This document shows positions 1 through 15,430 of a DNA stretch of 64,000 nucleotides, piece by piece; positions within the stretch are counted from its first letter, which is position 1; the number at the start of each line of letters is the position of its first letter. The position numbers were made by a program, and so were the translations under genes. The stretch covers positions 8,680,001 through 8,744,000 of the forward strand of contig NZ_CP092431.1 in NCBI RefSeq assembly GCF_022385335.1, read 5' to 3'. The notes under the pieces are model-generated. The model was not told the DNA's origin. It was given only the letters and a program-made list of their open reading frames with translations, and searched no databases. Origin of the DNA: Streptomyces deccanensis (lineage in GTDB: Bacteria; Actinomycetota; Actinomycetes; Streptomycetales; Streptomycetaceae).

Positions 1-3000
1 GTTGATGAGCGTGTGGTTGAGCTGGTTGCCGTACGTCAGCAGACACTCGTAGCAGCCGAGCGCGCAGGCCCGGCCAGGACGGTGCTGCTCGCCGCCCTCG
101 TCCGTGCCGTCCTCGCCGAAGTGGCAGATCTCCAGGGCGCGTCGCGCCGCCTTCGCCAGGGCGTCGCCCTCCGCCTGGAGCCGACGCAGCACGCCCGCAC
201 CGCCCTCGGCCGCCTCCGTGAACAGGATGCGCCGACGGGGGCCGTCGTCCGGCGGCAGCAGCTCGCTGGACAGCTCGGCGTCCTCCAGCTCGAACGCCGC
301 CTCGATCCCCCGCTCCAGGGCGTACATCAAGGACAGGGCGACCGGCTCGGGGAGCGCCTCGTCGAGGGTGACGACGAGGATGTTGCGGCGGTCCTCCACG
401 TAGGGGATCACTCGCTTCTTGCGGCGCCGTTCATGGCCGTCCGGGTCGATCACCGGCAGCTCGCTGGAGTCGCCTGACGCCTCCGCCGCGTCCTTGTCGT
501 TCATCCAGCGGCCGTCCGCGAGGTCCAGCCAGTAGCCCGCCGGCTCGTTGCTCTTGGCCCGGACCCGGCCGGTGTTGGTGATGCGCACGGTGGCCGAATC
601 GCCGTACGTGATCTTGGCGAGCGGGGCGCCGGAAGCGTCGGTCACGTCGGCGTTGAGGCGGCCCTTGCGGGTGCCGTGGTCGTGGAAGCGGTACGACGTC
701 TCCAGCTTGAAGCCGGCCCGACGGCGCTCCTCCTCGTCGGAGGAGATCCGCTCCCGGCGCGTCGTGTACACGGTGTGCAGGTGCAGCAGACCGTATGTGG
801 CCTGGCCCAACTGCTCCCCGCAGAAACCGCAGACGTCCTCCAGCTCCTCCGGGGCGTGGTGGTAGCCGCAGTTCGCGCAGCGCCGCGCCTCACCGGTCGT
901 CAGGTCGCCCGAGGCGTCCGGCGGCAGCTGGATACGGGTCACCTGGTAGCGGGCGCCCTCGTGGTAGATCAGAGCACCCGGGCCGAACTCACGGATCGCG
1001 AGGAAGCGAGGTCGCTGGAGGTAGTCGCCGTCTCCGCGCCGCCGTCCGATCGTGGGGATGTAGGCGGCGAGCGGCAGTCGCGGAAAGCTGTATCCGGGCA
1101 GGAAACCCTCGGATGCCAGATAGCGGTACGGGGTGAAGTCGGAGAGGACCGACTTGCTGTCGACGCTCTCGTTCATCAGCAGGTTCAGCTGCGTCTCCGC
1201 CTCGCGGCGCCGGGAGTTGGCGCGGATGCGGTCGCCCTCGGTGAGGCTGTAGTCGAGGCGGCGCTTGTTCTGGATGTACTGGTCGTAGAGCGCGGCACGG
1301 AACAGCTGCCGCCAACGGTCGAAGGCCCGGTCGAAGCGCTCCGCCACCGTCCGTACGCGATCCTGGATCCAGTCGTCGTGCCACCACGTGGTCTCGCTGA
1401 AGTCCCTGAACAGCGGGCCGAGGACGCGCAGCGCCGCGTCGACCGTGCGACGCCCGGCGCTCTCGTCGAGGGACGCCGCGAGAATGTCCGGCAGCAGCTC
1501 CAGCGCGGGGTTCGGCCGCTCGCCGGTGTCCGGATACGACACGTCGAGCACCTGCGGGATGGACTGGCCGAGCTTCAGGCCGGCTTCCGCGATCCAGATG
1601 CCCTGGAGGTGGGACAGCACCAGGTCCTCGTTGGCGAGGTCGAGGCGCGGCGGGACGACCGCGCCCGCGACCATGCGGTCCGAACGGCGGAAGTAGTACT
1701 GGTCATGGCTGTTGCCGGTCGCGCAGTAGGTGGTCACCAGCGCGGGCTGACCGCTACGGCCCGCGCGGCCCGAGCGCTGTGCGTAGTTGGCCGGAGTCGG
1801 TGGCACGTTGCGCATCATCACCGCGTTCAGCGAGGAGATGTCGACGCCCAGTTCCATCGTGGGGGAGCAGTAGAGCAGCTTCAACTCCGCCTTGCGGAAC
1901 GCCTCCTCGCGCTCCTGCCGGTCCTCCGGCGAGACCTGCGCGGTGTGCTCACGCGCGAACAGACCGGACAGGGTGCCGGCCGCGTCCCGGTACAGATCAC
2001 GGAAGAACGTGTTGACGCGCGGACCGTCGCCGCTCTGGTACGTGCGTGTCAGCGGATCGTGCGTCCCGGTCTCACCCCGGCCCGCGCGCCAGACGAGGGA
2101 CTGCGCGGCGACCCGGTAACCGGTCGCGGCCGGGGCGGAGGACCTGCGGTACCGGCCCGCGCGCTGAGGGGCCTCCATGACCTCCTTCACCAACCCCGCC
2201 TTGGCCAGGACCTTCAGCAACTGCTCGATGACCAGCTGGAGATCGGCCGGGTCGAGCCTACGATACGTCGCGTCCGCGCGCCGCAGGTACTTGCCGAACT
2301 TGCCGCGCGCCGACAGGAACAGGGCCGAGCGGTCCATACCGGGCCTGGACGGATGCGGATAGGCGGTGCCGACCTTGGGCTTGTCGGCGGCCGTCAGCAC
2401 CCACGGGTCGATCAGCCGTTCCTCGCTCGCCCGCTGCAGCGCGTCGAAGTCGTCACGGAAGTACGACACGTCGATGGCCAGCGAGCGGCGCATCTCGTTG
2501 AGCAGCGCCTTCGTGACCTCGGCCCGCAGCACCGGGTCGGCGTCCCGCAGCGCCTCGTGGGTGCCGGCCCACCGGTCCTGCTTGGCCGCCACCCAGTCGA
2601 GGTCCTCATAGCCGATCTCCAGCAGACCCGTCTGCTCCAGGTTCGGCATGGTGATGCGCCAGCCGCGCTCCAGGTCGAGATAGAGCCGGAACGCGATCAC
2701 GTCGCGGAGTGTCCTGGCGGCGTTGCGGGCGAGCGAGGGCGGCAGATCGCTCTCGCCGGTGTAGTCGGCCGGGTCGATCGCGAGGGCGTTCGTCACCGCC
2801 GAGGCCAGCTCCTCGTGCTGCAGGCCGTCCTCGCCCGCGTCCAGCGCCGCCCGGTACAGCGCGCCGCGCAACTGGGTGATCTGCACGAAGTCGTTGAAGT
2901 GGCCGGCCTGGAGAGAAGCGTCCTGCCGGTTGTCGACGAACGTGAGGAGCTTGCGCGCCTCCTTGTCCAGCACCTCCTCCGGCACCGACTTCAGCGACTT

Positions 3001-14348: not shown

Positions 14349-15430
14349 CACTCACCTACCGTGACCTCACCGCGGAACAACGCTCCTGCCTCGACGGACT
14401 GCCCTTCGACGGCAACCACCTGATCAGTGGGCCACCCGGCAGCGGGAAAAGTCTCCTGGCGGTCCAGCGAGCCGTCATGCTCGCCCTCACCGGTACTCCG
14501 ACGACGTTGCTGACGTACTCGAACCTCCTGCGTCAGTCACTGGCCGGGGCCGTACACACGCTGGGCCCGGAGGACCGCAGCGTGCGGGTGAGAACCGCGC
14601 ACGCATGGCTCGGCGAGTGGTACGGCGGTACGCCCCCGAAGGGCGAGGACGGATGGTTCGACTGGCCGGCTCTCTATGAACGCGCCGCGGAGAGCGGGCC
14701 CGTCCCCGGACTCACCCTGGTGGTGGACGAGGGGCAGGACCTGCCGCCCGGGTTCTACCGCCTGTGCCGACTCCTGGGAGCACGGGTGACCGTGTTCGCG
14801 GACGAGTGTCAACGGCTGACCGACACGAACTCCACGCTCGCCGAGATCGCCGAGCGCCTCGGCCGGTGCGACCGGCACCATGTCGAGGGCAACCATCGCA
14901 ACACCTACCAGACCGCGTCGTTCGCGGCTCACTTCCACACGGGCGCCGGTTCACCCCCGTTGCCGGACCGGCAGGGGCCCCCGCCAAGACTCCATCACCT
15001 GCCAGAACGCGGCGCGGCCGACCTGCTGCTCCTGTTGGCGGAGAGACAGCCGGGACGCAGCATCGGTGTCATCGTCCACTCGAAACACACCCAGTTCTCG
15101 TTGCTCGGCACCCTGCAACACCGAGCACCGAGGCTCAAACCACAGCTGTACACCTCCGATGCCAGGGGCGGGCGCTATCGCACGCTCGACCTCGGCCGTC
15201 CCGGCATCGTGCTGGTCCACCGCAGAAGCGCCAAGGGGCTCGGATTCGACACGGTGGTCATACCCGACACGCACGCCGACGCGGCCACGGATCCCACTTC
15301 GGCTGCCCTGCGCATGACCTACTACGTCCTTGCCACGCGTGCCCGGTTCGACCTTCACCTTGCGTACGAGGGAGAGTCCGAACCGCCCTTGCTCGCACAA
15401 GTGGGGACGAGCGTGCTGCTGCGCGGGTGA
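14345..15430 (+). CDS. UvrD/Rep-like superfamily-1 ATPase/helicase
   Basis: Compact SF1 motor, 361 aa, from GTG 14345 overlapping the drmB stop by 4 bp. Walker A GPPGSGKS is at 29-36 and Walker B DEGQD at 128-132. A motif VI-like stretch near the C-terminus (YYVLATRARFDL) resembles the VALTRAR arginine motif of UvrD. It is about half the size of UvrD or Rep, so the large 1B/2B insertions are mostly absent. It could be an ATPase or loader rather than a processive helicase. The coupled overlap says it works with DrmA/DrmB; such a gene is not among the named DISARM components I know. A stem-loop 145 bp downstream closes the run. Confidence 0.85.
   Translation: MTLTYRDLTAEQRSCLDGLPFDGNHLISGPPGSGKSLLAVQRAVMLALTGTPTTLLTYSNLLRQSLAGAVHTLGPEDRSVRVRTAHAWLGEWYGGTPPKGEDGWFDWPALYERAAESGPVPGLTLVVDEGQDLPPGFYRLCRLLGARVTVFADECQRLTDTNSTLAEIAERLGRCDRHHVEGNHRNTYQTASFAAHFHTGAGSPPLPDRQGPPPRLHHLPERGAADLLLLLAERQPGRSIGVIVHSKHTQFSLLGTLQHRAPRLKPQLYTSDARGGRYRTLDLGRPGIVLVHRRSAKGLGFDTVVIPDTHADAATDPTSAALRMTYYVLATRARFDLHLAYEGESEPPLLAQVGTSVLLRG

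Follow-up and report, generated by a model that had tools for sequence, protein, structure and literature searches.

The DNA analysed here, called the window throughout, is a stretch of 64,000 nucleotides (G000:C1:8680001-8744000) from the 10.1 Mb genome of Streptomyces deccanensis. Its left end carries a predicted anti-phage defence locus, in which genes for a Ser/Thr kinase-helicase, a sigma-70 factor, DrmA, DrmB and a small SF1-like ATPase lie around one divergent promoter region (Table 1). An original prediction, made from the letters of the window, had described this arrangement, and all five genes were present where it placed them, four of them complete and the kinase-helicase cut by the left edge. 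The 4-bp overlaps it noted among the last three genes were exact in the sequence, each reading GTGA, at both the DrmA/DrmB and the DrmB/SF1 junction. It had also suspected that missing parts might lie left of the window, and there we found the missing 3' end of the kinase-helicase gene, directly followed by genes for a DrmD-like helicase and then a DrmMI-like methyltransferase. Its statement that the window holds no drmC, methyltransferase, drmD or drmE was uncontradicted in positions 1-15430, the part searched, but is misleading. Methyltransferase and DrmD appeared to be missing because the window edge cuts the system, and their absence was rejected, as both genes directly follow the kinase-helicase. 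A classical DISARM operon just left of the window had been named as the observation that would speak against a new system; half of that is found, since the methyltransferase is there and drmC is not. At the right boundary the neighbouring genes were, as predicted, metabolic in appearance when judged by eye, and a pattern scan did not find the terminator proposed at 15575.

The whole island spans about 53 kb (G000:C1:8642016-8695430), mostly left of the window. The locus consists of two modules: module 1 encodes the kinase-YprA helicase, the DrmD/BrxHII-like helicase and the PglX/DrmMI-like N6-adenine methyltransferase, and module 2 encodes the sigma-70 factor, DrmA, DrmB and the SF1-like ATPase. 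In a third part of the island, a gene for a methyltransferase-like protein with a helix-turn-helix (HTH) domain, hereafter the HTH-methyltransferase, adjoins UvrD, McrC and a McrB-like AAA gene.

Table 1. Features of the locus within the window (positions counted from the first letter of the window).
Feature	Position	Strand	Basis and remarks
Kinase-helicase, Ser/Thr kinase and YprA/DruE-like DEAD helicase with MZB/DUF1998	1..5988 (3' end outside the window, L005:19548; likely start near 5850)	-	Family matches
Operator palindrome GTTGACGACGTCAAC between the two divergent operons	6007..6021	.	One of the genome's two sites of this kind
Predicted promoter of the sigma operon	6008..6037	+	-35 TTGACG (6008-6013) within the operator, 18-bp spacer, -10 TACCCT (6032-6037)
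RpoD-type sigma-70 factor, long charged C-terminal tail	6052..9333	+	Likely ATG start at 6067
DrmA helicase, short type	9379..12504	+	Profile match and tree
DrmB (DUF1998/MZB protein)	12501..14348	+	Profile match; 4-bp overlap with drmA
Small SF1-like helicase/ATPase	14345..15430	+	Walker motifs, model; 4-bp overlap with drmB

The full kinase-helicase, encoded on the minus strand, has 2146 amino acids (aa) and ends about 450 bp left of the window. Its kinase occupies residues 50-338 and is followed by a DEAD helicase and MZB (the DUF1998 module); DruE and kinase families were nearest in PADLOC. The kinase HRDLKPAN/DFG and the helicase motifs were conserved among the fused relatives aligned. 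A separate divergent kinase gene was found in G003, G022 contig 178 and G061, and the kinase part was absent from the aligned protein in both G037 copies. Fusion in some genomes and neighbourhood in others supports, as far as gene arrangement can suggest it, a functional link between kinase and helicase. The 983-aa SNF2 helicase that begins 32 bp after this gene matched PADLOC 'DpdE' with 1879.7 bits and DrmD with 283 bits. The methyltransferase gene overlaps it by one base, and the protein matched DrmMI (216 bits) and contains Eco57I and N6_Mtase domains; its motif IV was NPPW in 28 of 31 open reading frames (ORFs), some of them from one genome, and was unread in the other 3. In G045, the kinase-helicase, DrmD-like helicase, methyltransferase, McrB and McrC form one same-strand run, with the McrB and McrC starts each 4 bases inside the preceding gene.

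In module 2, the sigma protein is a 1093-aa ORF with sigma-70 regions 2, 3 and 4, and its nearest PADLOC family was MzaA. DrmA matched NCBIfam DISARM_DrmAS with 885.9 bits, slightly below the cut-off of 950, and DrmB matched DrmB_fam with 436.7 bits, above the cut-off of 240. The SF1-like ATPase showed Walker A and B in its sequence and weak family matches only; for its model (mean pLDDT 73), SF1/SF2 helicases made up most of the best 50 Foldseek matches (TM about 0.3-0.5). Sigma factors read promoters through particular residues of regions 2.4 and 4.2. In most sequences compared, these were the residues of the same genome's housekeeping-type (HrdB-like) sigma factors, and they deviated at one or two positions in both group C proteins (see below) and in L073. 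The sigma factor should therefore recognise ordinary promoters, and on these residues it probably reads housekeeping-like ones. A dedicated promoter specificity was rejected on the same match, so that the 'dedicated transcription' first proposed for this locus is doubtful; what looks dedicated is the operator described below.

We then examined how widely the modules recur. A scan with two exact peptide patterns from Streptomyces DrmA gave 62 loci, a lower bound, and since such patterns find close relatives only, part of the taxonomic narrowness follows from the search itself. The loci belong to Streptomyces, Kitasatospora and Wenjunlia, all Streptomycetaceae, a family to which we take Wenjunlia to belong; G024 and L102 are apparently the same record and are not independent. 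When the neighbours were scored by tblastn of nine proteins, sigma was found in 61/62 loci, DrmB in 61/62, SF1 in 60/62 and all four module-2 genes together in 60/62, the misses being L118 (truncated DrmA) and, for SF1, also L070 (a 5,998-base contig). Module 1 lay beside module 2 in 49/62 loci. Sorted by identity and layout, the loci fell into group A (n = 34), group B (n = 26) and group C (n = 2). The kinase-helicase was divergent from and adjoined sigma in 27 of the 34 group A loci, with DrmD also visible in 14 of these 27 and the others running off the fetched stretch. In group B, DrmD was 10-25 kb away by coordinates in 22/26, and both modules lay within one fetched stretch in 10. The recurrence of the kinase-helicase, sigma and SF1 genes beside DrmAB, on which the original prediction depended, thus held among these loci.

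The 13 loci lacking an adjacent module 1 comprised 4 at contig ends (L070, L075, L092, L108), the 2 of group C and 7 without it (L071, L076, L079, L080, L110, L115, L118). The genomes of L079 and L110 carry a 73% DrmD on a different contig. Kinase-helicase N-terminal remnants were seen in L071 and in the S. fungicidicus plasmid locus L167, and a methyltransferase C-terminal remnant in L076 and L167. In group C (L100, L116), sigma is divergent from DrmA-DrmB-SF1, without a convincing operator or a close HTH-methyltransferase; a kinase-less YprA-like helicase of 2260 aa follows SF1 in L100, and nearby in this genome, G084, methyltransferase, DrmD and kinase-helicase-like genes form a set that has diverged (28-32%). 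Neighbours of module 1 were also considered. A cysteine-bearing 739-aa protein, CoiA-like by eye and without a Pfam or PADLOC match, is encoded after the methyltransferase gene (L005:10118-12337, minus strand), and relatives with 58-81% identity recur in a few group B islands. CoiA-like and TerB-like neighbours were rejected as parts of the system because neither was found in the G024 stretch, although the CoiA-like one recurs in some group B islands.

In group A, the regions between the kinase-helicase and sigma genes have one palindrome in common, GTTGAC-N3-GTCAAC, and its left arm forms the -35 of the sigma promoter. The form GTTGACNNNGTCAAC had two exact occurrences in the genome, both in the island, and the reversed control had 0. 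The first is the site in the divergent promoter, and the second lies 44 kb to its left, 54 bp before the HTH-methyltransferase gene. In relatives the palindrome precedes both modules, even where they are 10-25 kb apart. Across 26 island stretches (1.04 Mb) we counted 29 sites with at most one mismatch; 59 other arms of the same letters gave 1.4 on average and 13 at most. Operators were then counted for each gene of these stretches, at up to one mismatch and from -300 to +100 of the called start. The palindrome preceded 12 of the 16 kinase-helicases with at least 59% identity and a start in view (the starts of G070, G068 and G080 were out of view). The misses were G045, G044 (two mismatches), and G024 and G077, where the ORF start was overcalled and a one-mismatch or perfect site lies beyond the scanned span. 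None of 79 internal genes had an operator (DrmD 23, methyltransferase 21, SF1 13, McrC 10, DrmB 8, DrmA 4), and 3 of 4 sigma genes did, the miss being of group C. Among 60 sigma ORFs of named loci, 47 had a site with at most one mismatch, 7 with two and 6 with at least three, compared with at most one mismatch in 19 of 620 random windows. The two-mismatch site of L116 (group C) is unlike the motif. The six with at least three mismatches were L070 and L075 (contig ends), L100 (group C), L079, L107 and L095, and a one-mismatch site was found for L079 and L107 in a separate scan of pooled sites.

Two further genes stand behind the palindrome. A gene of about 610 aa (402 aa called in G075) has a one-mismatch operator upstream in the islands of G078, G083, G077, G075 and G029 contig 8 (for example L127:7008-8840, minus strand), and gave a weak TPR match in G078, the sole copy scanned; it is likely a further member of the regulon. 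In G083, an SF1 helicase of 1016 aa that carries PLD and DUF5710 domains and is Mokosh-like in PADLOC (L130:14579-17626, plus strand) is encoded divergently from the kinase-helicase, with a perfect operator between the two, and a G013 gene with an N-terminus similar by eye has the same layout.

Because the left arm doubles as a -35, the palindrome might be nothing other than two overlapping -35 boxes of divergent promoters for the locus's own sigma factor, serving positive autoregulation only. A -10 (TANNNT) at 16-19 bp from the left-arm -35 (TTGAC) was indeed present at 53 of 117 pooled sites, compared with 45 of 1404 shifted placements. However, nine perfect palindromes before kinase-helicase or HTH-methyltransferase genes had a -10 at that spacing on neither strand. 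The palindrome also persists in the islands of G022 (contig 131) and G032, genomes that have no DrmA of this subtype and in which the sigma gene itself was not searched for. We therefore regard this explanation as improbable.

The distribution of the HTH-methyltransferase makes it a candidate for the protein that binds the palindrome. Of the 62 loci, 50 were entered into the search, and the gene was found in 48 of 50 module-2 genomes, both misses being of group C, compared with 8 of the 61 relatives when at least 54% identity was required. By coordinates it lay within 60 kb of DrmA in 45/48, a count for which contig identity was checked for part of the genomes only and from which L111 was dropped, its fetched stretch spanning that coordinate without the gene; it was seen inside the fetched locus in 18. 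Of these relatives, 7 carried module 1 with at least 65% identity, 8 carried the HTH-methyltransferase with at least 54%, and 6 carried both (Fisher p 3e-6, with identity cut-offs picked after the hits were seen). No one-mismatch site was present in the six stretches that have no close HTH-methyltransferase in their vicinity (G045, two of G037, G003, G022 contig 178 and G084). The HTH itself (GAEIARLAGVTRAAVSNWRRR) was nearly invariant. Of 30 copies that are at least 54% identical, motif IV was read in 29, and in all of these DPP precedes A, V, T, S or L, so that the catalytic aromatic residue is lacking; a 36% homologue has NPPF. A non-aromatic residue at this place can go with lost activity, as in METTL14, and methyltransferases such as M.SsoII repress through an HTH domain. 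The nearest structures to its model (mean pLDDT 79) were Type I HsdM and PacII methylation subunits (TM about 0.45-0.5). From its motifs, the protein is likely a dead methyltransferase turned regulator, and by analogy with M.SsoII we propose that it binds the palindrome.

We also asked which protein could cut DNA. A PLDc_2 search of the own genome placed the nearest match about 1 Mb away, and an HKD scan of the 26 island stretches found only the accessory PLD-helicase of G083, so DrmC elsewhere in the island was rejected. The canonical class 1-like loci of two Streptomyces relatives, G034 and G036, likewise had no HKD protein by motif. In module 1, a Vsr-like C-terminal signature, DGP.H(H/D/E), is kept in the kinase-helicases of G045, both G037 copies, G003, G022 contig 178 and G044, and altered in that of the window and in the other Streptomyces ones aligned. 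MTES_1575 matched weakly in G045 (0.011) and in the group C helicase (0.0005), and not on the last 150 aa of the window protein. With no DrmC and an apparently eroded Vsr-like domain, the best candidate for the island's nuclease is McrC (PF10117), provided that DrmAB does not rely on a different one. An OLD/GajA-like ATPase-nuclease (PADLOC GajA, 591 bits) is also encoded inside the island (L007:15223-17154, minus strand), without a one-mismatch operator.

Taken together, we consider it somewhat probable that this is a composite predicted anti-phage island of Streptomycetaceae, in which a kinase-fused ARMADA-Type-I-like operon, a DISARM-like operon and an HTH-methyltransferase/UvrD-McrC-McrB part share one operator. 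In such an island, DrmAB and the YprA helicase would act on phage DNA with exposed single strands, and the module-1 methyltransferase (NPPW) would mark self DNA. A dimer of the HTH-methyltransferase would bind the operator and repress, infection would lift the repression, perhaps via the kinase, and the sigma factor would then sustain transcription of the locus during infection. The original prediction of a DrmAB-based defence system holds for DrmAB and for a defence-like locus with a recurring kinase-helicase, sigma factor and SF1 gene. Its proposal that modification and the PLD nuclease are replaced is right in that the PLD nuclease is missing and fails for methylation, as the methyltransferase is retained, together with the DrmD-like helicase.

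Several observations weigh against the composite island. G028 has an HTH-methyltransferase (54%) and no site at up to one mismatch, and the G044 kinase-helicase (58%) is preceded only by the variant GTTTACTAAGTAAAC. The operator is rare before McrB (2/11) and stands before 4 of 13 labelled HTH-methyltransferase genes at one mismatch and 8 of 13 at two; those of G022 contig 131 and G044 have none even at three. When all ORFs labelled kinase-helicase are counted, distant ones included, the fraction is 12/29, and 19 of 414 unlabelled genes have an operator, partly as divergent neighbours of the same sites. The palindrome could also be bound by another island protein or by an unlinked one. In G022, G029 (two copies), G044 and G045, module 1 occurs with no DrmA of this subtype, and module 2 lacks an adjacent module 1 in the 7 loci named above, so neither module strictly requires the other.

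This independence, together with variable island cargo (OLD/GajA-like, EcsC, CoiA-like, Hsp70-like), would suit independent defence systems that share one island, the operator being the site of a host or island regulator and the DrmAB and ARMADA-like modules functionally unlinked. We judge this possible, though unlikely, since both palindrome sites of the genome lie in this island, the palindrome is kept before both operons across 10-25 kb, and the modules are neighbours in most loci. A more specific version of the composite island is an alarm-controlled defence, in which a catalytically dead Type I-like methyltransferase would be both decoy and repressor. Phage anti-restriction proteins directed against HsdM-type methyltransferases, or a kinase signal triggered when the YprA helicase meets phage single strands, would remove it from its palindrome and release both helicase operons and the sigma factor, which would sustain transcription while the phage seizes host RNA polymerase; we put this forward as quite speculative. 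If some 60 Streptomycetaceae genomes keep DISARM-like and ARMADA-like machines under one predicted switch, they provide a direct route to asking how a multi-operon defence island turns on. The island further suggests that a sigma factor and a kinase can be components of phage defence, and that a methyltransferase, likely dead, has become a regulator.

Comparison with DISARM shows both likeness and difference. The DrmA/DrmB homologues are adjacent with a 4-bp overlap, and DrmD-like and DrmMI-like genes are in the locus. DrmC is reported to be non-essential for DISARM (PMC9142583), and the locus might thus be a rearranged classical class 1 operon and nothing more. In contrast to class 1, its DrmD/DrmMI homologues lie in a separate divergent operon led by a second YprA helicase, as in ARMADA Type I (PMC12458937), the third gene is SF1, and a sigma factor and two operons are present. 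In a DrmA tree of 32 rows, the 11 rows of this system formed one clade (100/100), joined by Deinococcus gobiensis and Photobacterium DrmA at 99/98, and class 1 DrmA formed a separate clade (100/100; 3 rows, picked by adjacent DrmD and methyltransferase), with this system's DrmA outside. The DrmD and methyltransferase of G034 and G036 are only 27-29% identical to those of this locus, and the fetched stretches of both gave no sigma or kinase-helicase match above 45 bits. A mere class 1 rearrangement therefore appears very unlikely.

Plasmid triads of D. gobiensis and Photobacterium sp. TY1-4 (L168, L169) have the same DrmA-DrmB-SF1 order, and their annotation names only a helicase, a DUF1998 protein and an AAA protein; neither a sigma factor nor module 1 was detected in the stretches searched. 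Two other arrangements came to our notice. Rhizobium and Rhodococcus plasmids (L171, L173, L174) carry short DrmA-DrmB pairs with UvrD or NERD helicases near a 5mC methyltransferase and Vsr, a DISARM-like family unnamed in the record annotation. A Tsukamurella plasmid (L170) carries UvrD-DrmA-DrmB-DrmD-like-methyltransferase-YprA-like helicase on one strand, both modules in a single array, with no sigma match and no kinase-part match.

Among systems with related parts, MZA (mzaABCDE) contains the closest named sigma factor, MzaA (NCBIfam E 9e-69, 233 bits against a cut-off of 800, sigma domain only), and no other Mza model was among the PADLOC matches listed for the five window proteins, which for the kinase-helicase were the first 25. 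MADS (mad1-8) shares an HTH and N6 methyltransferase, a kinase and a small ATPase, and to our knowledge has no helicases and no sigma factor; mad6 matched the kinase with 242 bits (NCBI MAD6 147 bits, cut-off 460), mad2 gave 67 bits, and mad1 and mad8 about 19 bits. In CapK/CapS, a kinase relieves a repressor of immune operons (PMC13373217); these proteins resemble anti-sigma kinases and STAS proteins, and are a lead for mechanism only. McrBC with a DISARM-like cassette was noted earlier (PMC11090510).

The closest counterpart of module 1 is ARMADA Type I, an operon of a YprA-like helicase, a BrxHII-like SNF2 helicase and a PglX-like methyltransferase that is abundant in Actinomycetota; in that study Type II rather than Type I was challenged with phages (Bell et al. 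2025 preprint, PMC12458937). Module 1 has the same gene order, with NPPW in its methyltransferase. It differs by the Ser/Thr kinase fused to the helicase (the words 'kinase' and 'Streptomyces' each occur 0 times in the main text of PMC12458937), by the Vsr-like C-terminal motif, which looks eroded, and by its tie to the sigma-DrmAB-SF1 operon and the operator. As judged from sequence, ARMADA Type I, DISARM-like DrmAB and McrBC are thus the known kinds in this island, and what appears new is their variant under an unexpected shared predicted switch.

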